In this document: in pieces, positions 5,931 through 59,491 of the stretch
Layout of the letters: every line of letters begins with the position of its first letter
How positions within the stretch are numbered: position 1 is the stretch's first letter
NCBI RefSeq assembly: GCF_013488205.1
Contig: NZ_CP040908.1
Location: forward strand, 62,001-126,000
From: Empedobacter falsenii
GTDB taxonomy: Bacteria; Bacteroidota; Bacteroidia; Flavobacteriales; Weeksellaceae
Direction of reading: 5' to 3'
DNA length: 64,000 nt
Made by a program: the position numbers and the translations under genes
Notes under the pieces: model-generated
Seen by the model: the letters and a program-made list of their open reading frames with translations, nothing else
Database searches by the model: none
What the model was told of the DNA's origin: nothing

Positions 5931-8453
5931 ATGAAGAAAATTTTTTGGACAATGTGTATGCTTGGTGCTTACATGGCACAGGCGCAAGTCGTAGACTCTA
6001 CGAAAACCATTGATTCAACACAACAAGATAATTTTGTCTTAGATTATACCAATGCACGAACTTTCAAACTGAAAGATATCGTTGTAACAGGTGACTCTAA
6101 ATATTCTAAGAATCAAATTATCCGTTATGCAGGTTTTGCTATCGGTGAAGAGATAGAATTACCAGGTACGAAGGTAAATAATGCTGTAAAAAAATTATGG
6201 AGATCTAATATTTTCTCTGACATCGACTTGTATGTAGATAAAATAGAAGGTAACGAAGTAACATTAGAGCTTGCCTTGGTTTCAGTTCCTAGTTTAGGAG
6301 AAATTAAGATTAACGGCGTGAAAAAATCGCAACGCGAAGATTTAATCAAACAAAATAAATTAAATCCAGGTGTTAAGATTACACAAAGTTTGATCAATAC
6401 GACAAATAATAAAATCAAAGATTATTATACTGGAAAAGGTTATCCTAACACAACAATTAATGTAGAACGTCAACCAATTGCTGGTAAAGAAGATGAAGAA
6501 AATATTACATTGAATGTGAATCGTGGAGAGCGTGTAAAGATTAAGAAAATCATTTTCGAAGGAAATGACAACTTAACAGCTGCTCGTTTACGTAAAAAAG
6601 GGATGAAAAATACCAAACAGAAATCGATCAATATCTTCAAATCATCTAAAATGATTCCTGAAAAATTCCAGGAAGATTTAAAAACTTTGGTTGATGAGTA
6701 CAAATCTGTTGGTTTTAGAGATGCTAAAGTTGAGTCATACAACATCGAAAAAGTTGATGACAAAAACTTATTAGTTAAAATTAAAGTTAACGAAGGAAAA
6801 CCATATTTCTTAGGAGATGTAACGTTTTCTGGAAACTCAATTTATACTTCTGAACAATTACAACGAATTTTTGGTTACAAAACAGGAGATCGTTATGATG
6901 CAGTAGGTATCAACAAAAAGATTTCTGGATCAGAAAAAGACGATGATATTTCTACATTATACATGGATAGAGGGTATTTGTTTGCTCGTGCTATTCCTGT
7001 AGAAAAAAGTGTGAAAAATGATACAATCGATCTTGAAATTAAAGTTTTCGAAGGTACTCAAGCTACACTTAACAAAGTAACGATTAACGGTAATACAGAA
7101 GCTCATGATCATATTTTATACCGTGAGTTAAGAACTAAACCAGGAGATTTATTCTCTAAATCGGACATTAAACGTACGATGATGGAGTTAGCTTCTTTAG
7201 GATATTTAGAGCCAACGCAAATTGTTCCAGATATTCAACCAAATCAAGATAATAATACAGTTGATGTAGAGTGGAAAGTTGCGCCAAAATCATCTTCTCA
7301 AGTAGAATTACAAGGAGGATATGGTGCAGGGACTTTCATTGGTACATTAGGATTAACTTTCGGGAATTTCTCATTGAAGAATTTTTTCAATAAAAAAGCT
7401 TGGAAACCAATTCCAATGGGAGATGGACAACAATTATCATTAAGAGCACAAGCTGGTAACGGATATAAAAATTATAGTTTATCGTTTGTTGAACCTTGGA
7501 TTGGAGGAAAACGCCCTACAGCTTTATCAACGTCTTTTTATTATTCACAATATGATTACCGCGATAATTATGGAGAAAAAGCGAAATTGGATATCTTAGG
7601 AGCTTCAGTTGGTTTAACTAAGTTGTTAACTTGGCCAGATGATTATTTCCGTTTATCAAACTCAATTTCTTATCAGTTATATAACTTCGATAATTATGCG
7701 ATGTCTGTTGGTAATATGCAATATGAAAATGGTTCGTCAAACAACTTAAACTATACATTAGGTTTAACACGTAATTCAGCTGGACCAGACCCTATTTTCC
7801 CTCAATCAGGATCAGAAATTAGTTTATCGTTTACGACAACATTTCCTTATTCAGTTTTTAATAACAAAGACTATACAAACATGTCTGACGTAGAAAAATT
7901 CAAATGGTTAGAATATTATAAATTCAAAGCTAAAGCATATTTCTACAAAGAATTAACAGGTAAATTAGTTTTAAAAGCTGGTGGAGAATTTGGAGTTTTA
8001 GGAACATATAACCGTAAAATTGGAACAATTCCTTTCGAGCGTTTCTACTTAGGAGGAACAGGTCTTACACAAAATCGTTTCGATGGACGTGAGATCATTT
8101 CATTAAGAGGTTACGAAGATGCAACAAACTCTGGTGGACAAACAGGAGATATTACGCCAGAAGGAGGTGGAACAATCTATAATAAATATTCGTTAGAATT
8201 ACGTTATCCAATCACAATGAGCCAAACAGCCAAAATTTATGCATTAACTTTTGCAGAAGGAGGTAACGTTTGGAACAATACAAGTGAATTTAAACCGTTT
8301 GAATTAAAACGTTCTGCAGGAGCAGGTGTTCGTATTTATATGCCAGCATTTGGTTTGTTAGGATTTGATTTTGGATACGGATTTGATAAAGGATTTGGAC
8401 AAACAGAACGCTCTGGATGGCAAACTCACTTTATTATTGGACAACAATTCTAA
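5931..8453 (+). CDS. bamA: Outer-membrane protein assembly factor BamA
   Basis: 840 residues. A signal peptide (to about residue 18, ending AQA) precedes a periplasmic region that fits five POTRA repeats (about residues 45-440) and a C-terminal 16-strand Omp85 barrel. The conserved lid-loop motif appears as LRGYED near residue 725, and the protein ends in an aromatic barrel signature (FIIGQQF). BamA folds and inserts outer-membrane barrels. Its place between uppS and two Skp-type chaperones matches the Bacteroidota arrangement. Confidence 0.96.
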   Translation: MKKIFWTMCMLGAYMAQAQVVDSTKTIDSTQQDNFVLDYTNARTFKLKDIVVTGDSKYSKNQIIRYAGFAIGEEIELPGTKVNNAVKKLWRSNIFSDIDLYVDKIEGNEVTLELALVSVPSLGEIKINGVKKSQREDLIKQNKLNPGVKITQSLINTTNNKIKDYYTGKGYPNTTINVERQPIAGKEDEENITLNVNRGERVKIKKIIFEGNDNLTAARLRKKGMKNTKQKSINIFKSSKMIPEKFQEDLKTLVDEYKSVGFRDAKVESYNIEKVDDKNLLVKIKVNEGKPYFLGDVTFSGNSIYTSEQLQRIFGYKTGDRYDAVGINKKISGSEKDDDISTLYMDRGYLFARAIPVEKSVKNDTIDLEIKVFEGTQATLNKVTINGNTEAHDHILYRELRTKPGDLFSKSDIKRTMMELASLGYLEPTQIVPDIQPNQDNNTVDVEWKVAPKSSSQVELQGGYGAGTFIGTLGLTFGNFSLKNFFNKKAWKPIPMGDGQQLSLRAQAGNGYKNYSLSFVEPWIGGKRPTALSTSFYYSQYDYRDNYGEKAKLDILGASVGLTKLLTWPDDYFRLSNSISYQLYNFDNYAMSVGNMQYENGSSNNLNYTLGLTRNSAGPDPIFPQSGSEISLSFTTTFPYSVFNNKDYTNMSDVEKFKWLEYYKFKAKAYFYKELTGKLVLKAGGEFGVLGTYNRKIGTIPFERFYLGGTGLTQNRFDGREIISLRGYEDATNSGGQTGDITPEGGGTIYNKYSLELRYPITMSQTAKIYALTFAEGGNVWNNTSEFKPFELKRSAGAGVRIYMPAFGLLGFDFGYGFDKGFGQTERSGWQTHFIIGQQF

Positions 8454-8514
8454 TAAATTGATTAAATTTGCTTAGAACGTTTTGGCATAATTTTAGAATT
8501 AACACATCACAAAT

Positions 8515-9102
8515 ATGAAAAAATGGATTAGCTTTATAGCGTTGTTCTTTGGATTAGCAAGTTTCTCTTTTGCGCAAAGATTTTGTTACGTAGACAGCCA
8601 GTATATTTTAGAAAATTTACCTGAATATACTTCGTCTCAAAGCAAATTAAAATCTCAAACAGAATCTTGGCAAAAAGAAATTGAGCAAAAACAAGAAAAT
8701 TTAGCTAAATTACAAGCCGAATTCGAAGCCGAAAAGATTTTATTAACGGCAGAACAGGTGAAAGAGCAAGAGAAAAAGCTAGCGGATGAAGTGGCAGCTG
8801 TAAGAATTTTGCAAGACAAGCGTTATGGACCAAATGGTGATTTAGTGAATCTGAGAAGATCAATGGTAAAACCTTTACAAGATCAAATTTATAATGCGAC
8901 AAAAGAAGTTGCTGATAAAAGAGGTTATGGTTTCGTATTTGATAAAGGAAGTGATTTAATCATGATTTACACAGATCCAAAGTTTGACATAAGTAGAGAA
9001 GTATTAATGACTTTAAGACCAGAATTGAAACCAAATAATTCAAAAACATCAACTTCTGGAAATAATAAAACTAGTAATAGTAGCAATAAAACAAGAAAAT
9101 AA
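8515..9102 (+). CDS. OmpH/Skp-family periplasmic chaperone (first copy)
   Basis: 195 residues: signal peptide ending near FAQ (residue 20), then a long charged coiled-coil arm (about 45-110, rich in Lys/Glu/Gln) and the Skp body segment with FVFDKGSDLIMIYT. The last 25 residues are a low-complexity Asn/Ser/Thr/Lys tail. Skp trimers escort unfolded outer-membrane proteins to BamA, encoded 61 bp upstream. The second paralogue is 26 bp downstream. Confidence 0.92.
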   Translation: MKKWISFIALFFGLASFSFAQRFCYVDSQYILENLPEYTSSQSKLKSQTESWQKEIEQKQENLAKLQAEFEAEKILLTAEQVKEQEKKLADEVAAVRILQDKRYGPNGDLVNLRRSMVKPLQDQIYNATKEVADKRGYGFVFDKGSDLIMIYTDPKFDISREVLMTLRPELKPNNSKTSTSGNNKTSNSSNKTRK

Positions 9103-9128
9103 ATTTTAAAAAACAAATTAGACTAGAA

Positions 9129-9644
9129 ATGAAACAAATTAGATTGATAGCAGTATTTACAATGATGGTTTTCGGAAGCGTTTTATCTTTCGCTCAAGAA
9201 ATTGCACATATTGATACGCAAGCAGTAATTGAATCAATGCCAGCATACAAAAAAGCTGAAGCAGACTTAGAAGCATTAGGAAAAGGTCACCAAACTAAAA
9301 TTGAAGCTTTACAAGCAGAATATAAGGCTTTTATGGAAAAAGCACAAAAAGATTTAGCTGGTAAATCTCAAGAAGAAGCTCAAAAATTAATTGCAGCGAA
9401 CAAATACCAAGAAAAAGAGCAAGAAATGCAAAAGAAATATGAAAATTATGCAAAAGCTGCTCAAGATGAAATGCAAGCAAAAGAGAAAGCTTTAATGGAT
9501 CCAATCGAGAAAAGAGTAATGGATGCAATTAATGCTGCTGCTGCAAAAAAAGGAGTTAAATATGTTTTACCTGCAGGTGTTTTAGTTTACAAAGCTGGAG
9601 GATACGACTTATTAAACGATGTTAAAAAAGAATTAGGTTTATAA
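9129..9644 (+). CDS. OmpH/Skp-family periplasmic chaperone (second copy)
   Basis: 171 residues with a signal peptide (cleavage near FAQE, residue 23), a long Lys/Glu/Ala-rich coiled-coil arm (about 45-120) and the short Skp C-terminal core (VKYVLPAGVLVYKAGGYDL). It is more compact than its upstream neighbour and lacks the Ser/Asn tail. It closes the BamA cluster and is followed by a strong terminator. Two divergent Skp copies side by side are normal in Bacteroidota; how they divide clients is not known. Confidence 0.92.
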   Translation: MKQIRLIAVFTMMVFGSVLSFAQEIAHIDTQAVIESMPAYKKAEADLEALGKGHQTKIEALQAEYKAFMEKAQKDLAGKSQEEAQKLIAANKYQEKEQEMQKKYENYAKAAQDEMQAKEKALMDPIEKRVMDAINAAAAKKGVKYVLPAGVLVYKAGGYDLLNDVKKELGL

Positions 9645-10621: not shown

Positions 10622-11890
10622 TTAATCTAAAATCTCAAAACGAGTATAAGGTTGCAATGCTTTCGGAATTTTTACTGTTCCATCAGCCTGTTGGTGATTC
10701 TCTAGAATTGACGCTAAAATACGTGGTAAAGCTAAAGCAGAACCATTTAAACTATGCGCTAATTGAGTTCCATTTTCATCTTTGTAACGTAATTTCAAAC
10801 GATTTGCTTGGAAAGTCTCAAAATTAGAAACAGAAGAAACTTCTAACCATTTTTCTTGCGCTTCAGAGAAAACTTCGAAATCGTATGTAATTGCAGATGT
10901 AAAACCTGTATCACCACCACATAGTCTTAAAATACGGTATGGTAATTCTAAATCTTCTAAAATTCCTTTTACGTGCTCAATCATTCCGTCTAAAGCAGCA
11001 TAAGAATTTTCTGGTTTTTCAATACGCACAATCTCAACTTTCTCAAATTGGTGCAAACGGTTCAAACCTCTTACATCTTTTCCATAAGAACCCGCTTCAC
11101 GACGGAAACATGGCGAATATGCAGTCAACGTAATTGGTAAATCTTCTGCTCTTACAATCGTATCACGGTAAATATTTGTCACAGGAACTTCCGCAGTCGG
11201 AATCAAGTACAAATCATCTTCTCCAATATAATACATTTGCCCTTCTTTGTCTGGTAACTGTCCTGTTCCATAACCAGAAGCCTCATTCACAACGAAAGGA
11301 GGAACGATTTCTGTATAACCAGCATCAGAATTTTTATCTAAGAAAAATTGCGTTAAAGCACGTTGCAAACGAGCACCTTTTCCTTTGTAAACAGGGAAAC
11401 CAGCTCCAGTAATTTTAACACCTAATTCAAAATCAATGATGTCAAATTTCTTAGCAACTTCCCAGTGTGGCAAATTGTTTGGTTTTGCAGTTGCATCTCC
11501 GTGTTCAAAAACGATTTCGTTATCATCAGCATCTTTTCCTGCCATTACGATTTCGTTCGGAATATTCGGGATTTGATACAAAATATCTTTAACGGATGTT
11601 TCGTAAGACGATAATAAATCTTGTAACTCTTTTGATTGAGTTTTTAAATCAACCGTTTTGTTTTTTAATTCATTAGCCTCTTCCGATCTTCCATCTTTAA
11701 ACAAATTACCAATTTCTTTTGCTAATTTGTTGGATTCAGCTAATACATTATCTAATTCAAATTGTGTTTTACGACGAAGTTCATCCACATTTAAAACTTC
11801 ATCAACAAGATCTAATTGTTTGAAGTTACGTTTTTTAAGTCCTTCAATTACACGATCTTTGTTTTCTTGAATGTAAGAAACTACTAGCAT
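10622..11890 (-). CDS. serS: Seryl-tRNA synthetase
   Basis: 422 residues from the ATG at 11890. An upstream in-frame TTG exists, but it sits in the -7 box, and family members begin like MLVVSYIQENKDRV. The N-terminal 110 residues form the tRNA-binding antiparallel coiled coil, followed by a class II catalytic core with motif 2 (TAYSPCFRREAGSYGKDVRGLNR, residues near 270) and motif 3 (LNGSALALPRILASILEN). It charges tRNA-Ser and also supplies tRNA-Sec in species that use it. Single gene between a terminator and its own promoter. Confidence 0.97.
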   Translation of the reverse strand: MLVVSYIQENKDRVIEGLKKRNFKQLDLVDEVLNVDELRRKTQFELDNVLAESNKLAKEIGNLFKDGRSEEANELKNKTVDLKTQSKELQDLLSSYETSVKDILYQIPNIPNEIVMAGKDADDNEIVFEHGDATAKPNNLPHWEVAKKFDIIDFELGVKITGAGFPVYKGKGARLQRALTQFFLDKNSDAGYTEIVPPFVVNEASGYGTGQLPDKEGQMYYIGEDDLYLIPTAEVPVTNIYRDTIVRAEDLPITLTAYSPCFRREAGSYGKDVRGLNRLHQFEKVEIVRIEKPENSYAALDGMIEHVKGILEDLELPYRILRLCGGDTGFTSAITYDFEVFSEAQEKWLEVSSVSNFETFQANRLKLRYKDENGTQLAHSLNGSALALPRILASILENHQQADGTVKIPKALQPYTRFEILD

Positions 11891-11908
11891 ACTTTTATTA
11901 AATTTATA

Positions 11909-11916
11909 CAAATGTA
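11909..11916 (-). promoter_or_regulatory. -7 promoter element for serS
   Basis: TACATTTG on the minus strand, a perfect TAnnTTTG, 18 bp before the serS ATG. This supports the shorter start chosen for the protein. Confidence 0.55.
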
Positions 11917-12221
11917 TAAATAATTAATTTTTTAGAATAAAGATTAAATGATTTAGTATCAAAAATTAATCAAAATCTACTTATTTTTAGATTTTACTGT
12001 CTTTATTAGATAAATAATTGACATAATGTTTTTTACAAATAATATTCAAAAATTGTAAAATATTTTATAATTAATTGATAATTAATGCATTAAACTTTAT
12101 TTATTGAGAATTTATTAATACAACTATATTACATTGATTTTACATGCTGTTGTTTGCATTTCGAAATACATTTGTCAAAGAAAATTAATCGAAAATTATT
12201 AATAATTAAAACAATAAAACA
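11917..12221. other. AT-rich intergenic region upstream of the heptad lipoprotein
   Basis: About 300 bp with very low GC between divergent serS and the small lipoprotein gene. Apart from a -7 box (TACATTTG at 12167-12174, 48 bp before the lipoprotein ATG), I see no conserved gene, strong hairpin or RNA. The 48-bp leader begins an A-rich stretch common before highly expressed Bacteroidota genes. Confidence 0.5.
12167..12174 (+). promoter_or_regulatory. -7 promoter element for the heptad-repeat lipoprotein
   Basis: TACATTTG, perfect match to TAnnTTTG, 47 bp upstream of the ATG. Candidate -33 TTG triplets (12150, 12154) are closer than the usual 19 nt. Confidence 0.5.
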
Positions 12222-12473
12222 ATGAAAAAATTTTTCGCAGTAGTTGCAGTAGCAGCTTTATCTTTAGGAGCAGTATCTTGTGGTGAGAAAAAAGCAGAAG
12301 AAGCACCAGCTAACGTTGATTCAGCAGCAGTAACAGTTGATTCAGCAGCAGCAGTAGTTGATTCAGCAGCAGCAGTAGTTGACTCAGCAGCAGCTAAAGT
12401 TGATTCAGCAGCAACTAAAGTTGAAGGTGCAGCTAAAGAAGTAGCTCCAGCTACTGAAGCTCCAGCAAAATAA
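12222..12473 (+). CDS. Small lipoprotein with VDSAAAV 7-residue repeats
   Basis: 83 residues, no known domain recognised. A signal peptide ends at a lipobox-like AVSC with Cys20 as the likely lipidation site. Residues 32-66 are five consecutive 7-residue units (VDSAAVT, VDSAAAV twice, VDSAAAK, VDSAATK) encoded by near-identical 21-bp DNA repeats, followed by VEGAAKE. Val and Ala recur every seven residues, as in an alanine-zipper coiled coil. The protein ends in Lys83. Size, lipid anchor, heptads and terminal lysine recall Braun's lipoprotein, but there is no sequence identity to prove it. A paralogue with the same signal peptide is at 59273. Confidence 0.85.
   Translation: MKKFFAVVAVAALSLGAVSCGEKKAEEAPANVDSAAVTVDSAAAVVDSAAAVVDSAAAKVDSAATKVEGAAKEVAPATEAPAK
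12325..12429 (+). repeat. In-gene tandem 21-bp repeats
   Basis: Five head-to-tail 21-bp units of the pattern GTTGATTCAGCAGCA plus six variable bases, inside the lipoprotein gene. Unit length is a whole number of codons, so copy-number change would keep the frame and shorten or lengthen the rod by seven residues. Confidence 0.8.
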
Positions 12474-12501
12474 TTTGAAATAACATTCAGATCATATAAA
12501 G

Positions 12502-12530
12502 AAACCACTTATTAGATAAGTGGTTTTTTT
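12502..12530. terminator. Terminator between the heptad lipoprotein and holB
   Basis: Stem AACCACTTAT / ATAAGTGGTT with a short loop and a T run on the plus strand. It overlaps the holB stop codon region, so it serves the lipoprotein gene and possibly both converging genes. Confidence 0.8.
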
Positions 12531-13653
12531 ATGCTGTTTTGCGATGTAAATATCTCGTTAGCTTGATTGATAAATCTAAAAGAATAATTTTAGAATTACC
12601 ATTTCGCTCGATATGATATGACGCTTCATTAATTTCATTTAAAATATCTTCGATATTTGCTCCATGTATAAAAGGCGCAAAACCTTGCCATTTAAAGCCT
12701 TCTGCATTGATTTGCAAGAAAACTAAATCATCAGATTGATACGTTTTTAACAAAGCTTGACGAAAAATCTCGGAACAATAGTTCAAAAAATCTTTTTGCT
12801 CACTTCTCGACCAACTTGCAATTTGATTTGACCAATCAATCAAATCCTTTAAAACGGTTGGAGTTTTGGCTGCCATAAACGCTTTTCGAACCCAAGTCAC
12901 AAAATATTTATCGAATAAATGCTCGTCATCATTCAATTGATGCAAGGCTTCTCGTACATTTCCTTGCGATAGAAAAGCAATATGTTGCGCTTTTTCTGGA
13001 TTAATATTTTTCTTCTCAACCAAATAGTTCTTTACATCCGATTGCGATAAACGTGGGATTTTGACTAATTGACAACGAGAAGTAATGGTTTGTAAAATTA
13101 AATCCTCGCGCTCTGTTACCAATAAAAACAGTGTTTTTTGAGGTGGTTCTTCAATTATTTTCAACAATTTATTGGCTGCAGCAGTTGTCATTTCCTCTGC
13201 TTGCCAAATAATCATGATTTTGTAACCGCCTTCGTAACTGTTTAGCGCTAATGTTTTAACAATTTCATCTGCTTCATCAACAGGGATAACGCCTTGTTTT
13301 TTTTCAATTCCGAGATGGGACATCCAATCGGTTAGATTTCCATAGACATTTTCGTCTACAAAAGTTCGCCAATCGTTTAATAAATACTTAGCAAGTGGCT
13401 TTTTTACACTTTCTGTTGCTGAATAAGGAAAAGAAAAATGTAAATCGGGATGTTGTAATTTATCAACTTTCAGATTGCATTGTTCGTTATTCAAACCACA
13501 CAAAACCTCACGTGCATAAGCAATAGCCAAAGCCAAAGTTCCCGAACCTTCTGGACCAGAAAATAGCTGCGCATGACTTATACGACCATCTTTTATAGAT
13601 TGTTGAAGTTTGTTTTTAATCTCCTGTTGTCCAATTACATTTTCCCAAAGCAT
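12529..13653 (-). CDS. holB: DNA polymerase III subunit delta' (clamp-loader ATPase-like)
   Basis: 374 residues with the AAA+ clamp-loader fold. The Walker A region reads GPEGSGTLALA, so the usual Lys is replaced by Thr and ATP binding is unlikely, as in known delta' subunits. A pair of Cys lies near residue 52-59 (CGLNNEQC), only part of the zinc module of E. coli delta'. The downstream motif KLLKIIEEPPQKTLFLLVTE and sensor region TITSRCQLVKI are typical. With delta and gamma/tau it opens the sliding clamp. The start codon lies 4 nt after a -7 box. Confidence 0.9.
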   Translation of the reverse strand: MLWENVIGQQEIKNKLQQSIKDGRISHAQLFSGPEGSGTLALAIAYAREVLCGLNNEQCNLKVDKLQHPDLHFSFPYSATESVKKPLAKYLLNDWRTFVDENVYGNLTDWMSHLGIEKKQGVIPVDEADEIVKTLALNSYEGGYKIMIIWQAEEMTTAAANKLLKIIEEPPQKTLFLLVTEREDLILQTITSRCQLVKIPRLSQSDVKNYLVEKKNINPEKAQHIAFLSQGNVREALHQLNDDEHLFDKYFVTWVRKAFMAAKTPTVLKDLIDWSNQIASWSRSEQKDFLNYCSEIFRQALLKTYQSDDLVFLQINAEGFKWQGFAPFIHGANIEDILNEINEASYHIERNGNSKIILLDLSIKLTRYLHRKTA

Positions 13654-59272: not shown

Positions 59273-59491
59273 TTATTGAGCAACTGCTGTAGAATCTGCT
59301 GCTGGAGCTGCTACTGCTGCTGAATCAGCTACTGGAGCTGCTGCAGAGTCAACTACTGCTGAATCAACTACTGCTGTAGCTGAATCTGTAGCTGGAGCTT
59401 CTTCTACTGGTGCTTCTTCAGTTTTCTCTCCACAAGATACTGCTCCTAATGATAAAGCTGCTACTGCAACTACTGCGAAAAATTTTTTCAT
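59273..59491 (-). CDS. Small Ala/Asp/Ser-rich lipoprotein, paralogue of the one at 12222
   Basis: 72 residues. The first 22 residues (to SCGEK, Cys20) are identical to the gene at 12222. The rest carries VDSA/ADSA motifs but with prolines and uneven spacing, so no regular heptads, and it ends in Gln not Lys. The gene is preceded by a TAACTTTG box (59536-59543). Function unknown; probably an abundant surface or periplasmic lipoprotein. Confidence 0.8.
   Translation of the reverse strand: MKKFFAVVAVAALSLGAVSCGEKTEEAPVEEAPATDSATAVVDSAVVDSAAAPVADSAAVAAPAADSTAVAQ

Follow-up and report, generated by a model that had tools for sequence, protein, structure and literature searches.

The window, meaning the whole stretch of 64,000 nucleotides of Empedobacter falsenii DNA analysed here, carries on its plus strand at 12222-12473 a genuine open reading frame, running from ATG to TAA, that encodes an 83-residue lipoprotein (MKKFFAVVAVAALSLGAVSCGEKKAEEAPANVDSAAVTVDSAAAVVDSAAAVVDSAAAKVDSAATKVEGAAKEVAPATEAPAK). 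The gene is flanked by serS (10622-11911, minus strand) and by a DNA polymerase III delta'-like gene (12529-13653, minus strand). Comparison of the upstream sequences of its orthologs pointed to a candidate promoter element, TACATTTG, at 12167-12174 (plus strand), which may be a Bacteroidetes -7 element (TAnnTTTG type); the element and the A-rich leader downstream of it recur in most orthologs. A hairpin resembling an intrinsic terminator is found at 12495-12533 (plus strand), suggesting that the lipoprotein gene forms a single-gene transcript. The codons GCC, GCG, GTC, and GTG do not occur at all in this gene or in its paralog within the window. Such a combination of an own candidate promoter, a conserved leader, a terminator, and these absent codons is consistent with high expression. 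An antisense reading frame (12206-12508, minus strand) was dismissed as a mechanical opposite-strand reading of the repeat described below. Elsewhere in the window, two OmpH/Skp-like genes come after a BamA-like gene (5931-9644, plus strand), together an ordinary outer-membrane assembly cluster.

The lipid anchor proposed in the preliminary description was recovered as a lipoprotein signal peptide (12222-12281, plus strand) with the lipobox LGAVSC and a predicted acylated Cys20, a residue that is invariant across both family alignments (A1 and A2). The five residues at positions +2 to +6 after this cysteine are GEKKA, which fit none of the published signals for surface export of lipoproteins (C-X-K-(D/E)2-X, QKDDE, SDDFE, and SDDDD; PMC5080379). 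Judged by its family-model score, the protein is a small lipoprotein of PG1828, an already known Bacteroidota family (NCBIfam NF050142, 55.9 bits, E 5.4e-15, curated cut-off 50). All 15 members of a multi-genus Bacteroidota alignment match the same model, 8 of them also matching the alanine-zipper model weakly, and in an even sample of 296 Bacteroidota genomes 30 match NF050142 at E <=1e-9 and 13 pass the cut-off. The protein scored 18.8 bits against the Lpp/OprI alanine-zipper model NF040598, failing its cut-off of 43; when the whole genome was searched it reached 20.9 bits, and no other protein exceeded that cut-off either. Pfam and PDB sequence searches with the protein returned no meaningful match, and a literature search for Bacteroidota proteins of the Lpp or alanine-zipper kind turned up nothing about the PG1828 family. 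Compared to that family, named after PG1828 of Porphyromonas gingivalis, the protein has the same small size and D/S/A/V-rich body, but its heptads are more regular than those of many members and it carries a Pro/Ala tail. With the OprI/alanine-zipper lipoproteins (NF040598, PF11839) it shares an Ala-rich, helical character and the sub-threshold similarity, whereas its repeat sequence differs.

The body of the mature protein is built from five in-register VDSAAxx heptads (residues 32-66; 12315-12419, plus strand), which read VDSAAVT, VDSAAAV, VDSAAAV, VDSAAAK, and VDSAATK and are followed by VEGAAKEV at residues 67-74. The five repeats had been called exact; five in-register VDSAA cores are indeed present, but exact VDSAAAV copies number only two. 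Valine recurs every 7 residues, seven times between residues 32 and 74; when the mature sequence was shuffled 200,000 times, only 2 shuffles attained this regularity. A heptad table confirmed the fixed Val/Ala positions noted earlier, with Val at position a seven times and Ala at d, and these are the small hydrophobic residues at a and d by which Lpp/OprI-type heptads are recognised. At the DNA level, TRF reported a tandem repeat with a period of 21 bp at 12302-12424, indicating that the heptad period itself arose from tandem duplication. Val, Ser, and Asp have a low propensity for helix. The predicted AlphaFold2 monomer is a single helix spanning residues 31-78, with the linker and the last residues non-helical, although confidence is modest (pLDDT block means of 61-82 over residues 31-70).

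Exactly five in-register D-S/T units are found in 9 of 10 serS-side orthologs, and also in Flavobacterium homologs and in that of genome G023; in several genera the later units carry Lys at position g, the last of the heptad. Since both the five units and their unit-specific residues are common to several genera, the units must be old and individually recognisable. Their number has been maintained and the length of the heptad region seems constrained, which speaks for a structural role that depends on length. Together, the lipid anchor, the predicted V/A heptad helix, and the unit number kept across species bear out the Lpp-like architecture of the preliminary description. A small number of Flavobacterium homologs contain four or two units rather than five, and in the Faecalibacter ortholog (G012) and several argH-side paralogs the heptad register is gone and prolines have appeared. 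The paralog in the window (59273-59491, minus strand; 72 residues, E 4.2e-14) matches the 83-residue protein exactly in signal peptide and initial mature residues (MKKFFAVVAVAALSLGAVSCGEK), but its heptad register is broken by prolines and it ends in TAVAQ; in most congeners a paralog of this type adjoins argH. With the heptads lost from this paralog and from the Faecalibacter ortholog, a rod cannot be indispensable throughout the family. One congener also encodes, on the minus strand of L080, a 166-residue lipoprotein whose N-terminus is similar and leads into a long helical stretch, rich in Lys, Ala, and Glu, that is LEA-like in appearance.

The protein does end in a lysine, Lys83, as first described. 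The final ten residues, VAPATEAPAK (12441-12470, plus strand), include two prolines and have no resemblance to the Lpp box. Loss of the terminal Lys and of the repeat register in close relatives had been named beforehand as evidence against a Braun-lipoprotein analogue, and the terminal Lys is indeed not conserved: among the 10 serS-side orthologs, whose tails vary in length, 7 end in Lys and 3 in Asn, and the argH-side paralogs end in Gln, Lys, or His, the window paralog in Gln. Among 73 distinct family proteins, 46 end in K, 13 in Q, 6 in N, 5 in H, and three in other residues; the codons for K, Q, N, and H, the last residues of 70 of these proteins, are all of the form (A/C)AN.

The search for L,D-transpeptidases suggested earlier returned no match in this genome for either YkuD (PF03734) or YkuD_2 (PF13645). 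PF03734 was also without a match in all 13 congeners, the E. coli control being positive. PF13645 was absent from 11 of the 13 congeners and present in 2; this model matched none of the named controls, but it did match other genomes in the same search. None of the seven genomes whose ortholog ends in Lys, the window's included, has PF03734 or PF13645. One VanW-domain protein (PF04294) is encoded in this genome, in an open reading frame with no visible signal peptide; VanW is absent from five of the same seven genomes. We considered VanW as a linking enzyme and hold it to be doubtful, as no signal peptide is visible and the distribution is patchy. In L113 (346-2106, minus strand) the VanW domain belongs to a 586-residue protein whose long extra C-terminal region resembles a glycosyltransferase on visual inspection; of 14 genomes of the genus, 2 have such a protein. 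The genome further contains seven OmpA-domain matches, and proteins with this domain can, going by their domain content, supply wall binding instead of the lipoprotein.

The gene, its lipobox, its family membership, the conserved five units, and the missing YkuD are established, and covalent wall linkage in this organism is unlikely. The reading that we prefer, with about an even chance of being correct, is that this PG1828-family outer-membrane lipoprotein serves as a periplasmic spacer, or stabilises the envelope, without covalent attachment, in a manner comparable with free Lpp. The protein would face the periplasm from the inner leaflet of the outer membrane, an orientation favoured by the lack of a published surface-export signal at +2 to +6. 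Its heptad repeats would probably form a helical rod like that of Braun's lipoprotein, as the structure model suggests, and the molecules, presumably self-associating and abundant, would then act as the non-covalent spacer or stabiliser. Much less credit is due to a true Braun-lipoprotein analogue, in which an L,D-transpeptidase would attach the side chain of Lys83 to peptidoglycan. A narrow distribution, confined to E. coli and its close relatives, has been described for Lpp (PMC11784454). The window protein resembles Lpp of E. coli and Dickeya in its lipid anchor, heptad V/A pattern, terminal Lys, and mature length (64 versus 58 residues), its genome encodes the one VanW-domain protein, and in Dickeya one Lys at the end can be enough for attachment and the Lpp box tolerates substitutions (PMC12274547). 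Nonetheless, it falls below the Lpp family cut-off, its tail contains prolines and no Lpp-like box, Asn replaces Lys in three orthologs, the transpeptidase domains are missing from this genome and from most or all congeners, and the VanW protein lacks a visible signal peptide, runs into a long second region, and is absent from most Lys-ending genomes. The covalent linkage and the trimer of Lpp are only putative for the window protein. We therefore no longer uphold the proposal of a terminal Lys bonded to peptidoglycan, the half of the comparison that defines Lpp, and regard this explanation as very unlikely.

A more serious competitor, though still doubtful, is a low-complexity and largely disordered lipoprotein whose repeats come from slippage of the 21-bp unit and whose polar last residue plays no part at the wall, perhaps only guarding the tail from tail-specific proteases. 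The tandem repeat in the DNA, the proline-rich, non-heptad versions in paralogs and in one ortholog, and the shared (A/C)AN codons at the C-terminus all favour it; free slippage, however, would not preserve five units with the same unit-specific residues in orthologs and other genera, and AlphaFold2 predicts a helix. It is improbable that the protein instead resides at the surface or in vesicles, with stimulation of TLR2 as its chief documented effect, as reported for the Porphyromonas gingivalis protein PG1828. The family name agrees with this, and lipidation and cell activation have been reported for PG1828, but such activation is the host's reaction to the lipid anchor and not a bacterial function, and the residues at +2 to +6 carry no published export signal.

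The Flavobacterium homologs (for example L103, L096, and L118-L124) belong to the same family, and most keep five VDSAAxx units; for one of them AlphaFold2 predicts a helix at residues 26-73. They differ from the window protein in their Lys-Lys ends, in tails mostly free of prolines, and in genomes rich in YkuD and YkuD_2 where tested (4-5 and 3-5 proteins each, respectively, in 7 Flavobacterium-type genomes). A Lys-Lys C-terminus occurs in 14 of 15 distinct Flavobacterium-type sequences, while the preceding tail varies (EEVKK, EEAAAPAKK, EEAAKEVKK, and TEAAKK). Dickeya Lpp and OutB, both wall-linked, also both end in Lys-Lys. Every Lys-Lys genome tested has YkuD; most of these genomes represent one genus, and Prevotella and Chryseotalea have YkuD yet end in Gln. 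The tie between Lys-Lys ends and YkuD content is therefore only suggestive, the comparison being phylogenetically non-independent. A wall tether would be expected to leave such a pattern, which makes the Flavobacterium homologs better candidates for an Lpp-type tether than the window protein. An independent Braun-type tether in Flavobacteriales, with fixed-heptad, Lys-Lys PG1828 lipoproteins bonded by YkuD enzymes in Flavobacterium and relatives and an Empedobacter lineage that lost the bond (YkuD gone, Pro/Ala tail) and kept the rod, has in our estimate a small but real chance of being correct. The Empedobacter protein may be a descendant that lost its wall bond. If the Flavobacterium homologs are wall-linked, an abundant envelope tether would have evolved twice, and PG1828, so far mainly known as an immune stimulant, would gain a physiological role. 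For the window protein itself the outcome is mainly a correction, namely a member of a known family that is helical by prediction and probably not wall-linked. Lys-Lys persists despite changes in the length and sequence of the tail in homologs L103, L105, L096, L098, L118-L125, and L135. Two others, L129 and L097 (the latter with no intact signal-peptide frame in the stretch examined), end in Lys-Asn-Asn, as if a single base had slipped within the A-run of a Lys-Lys-stop sequence.
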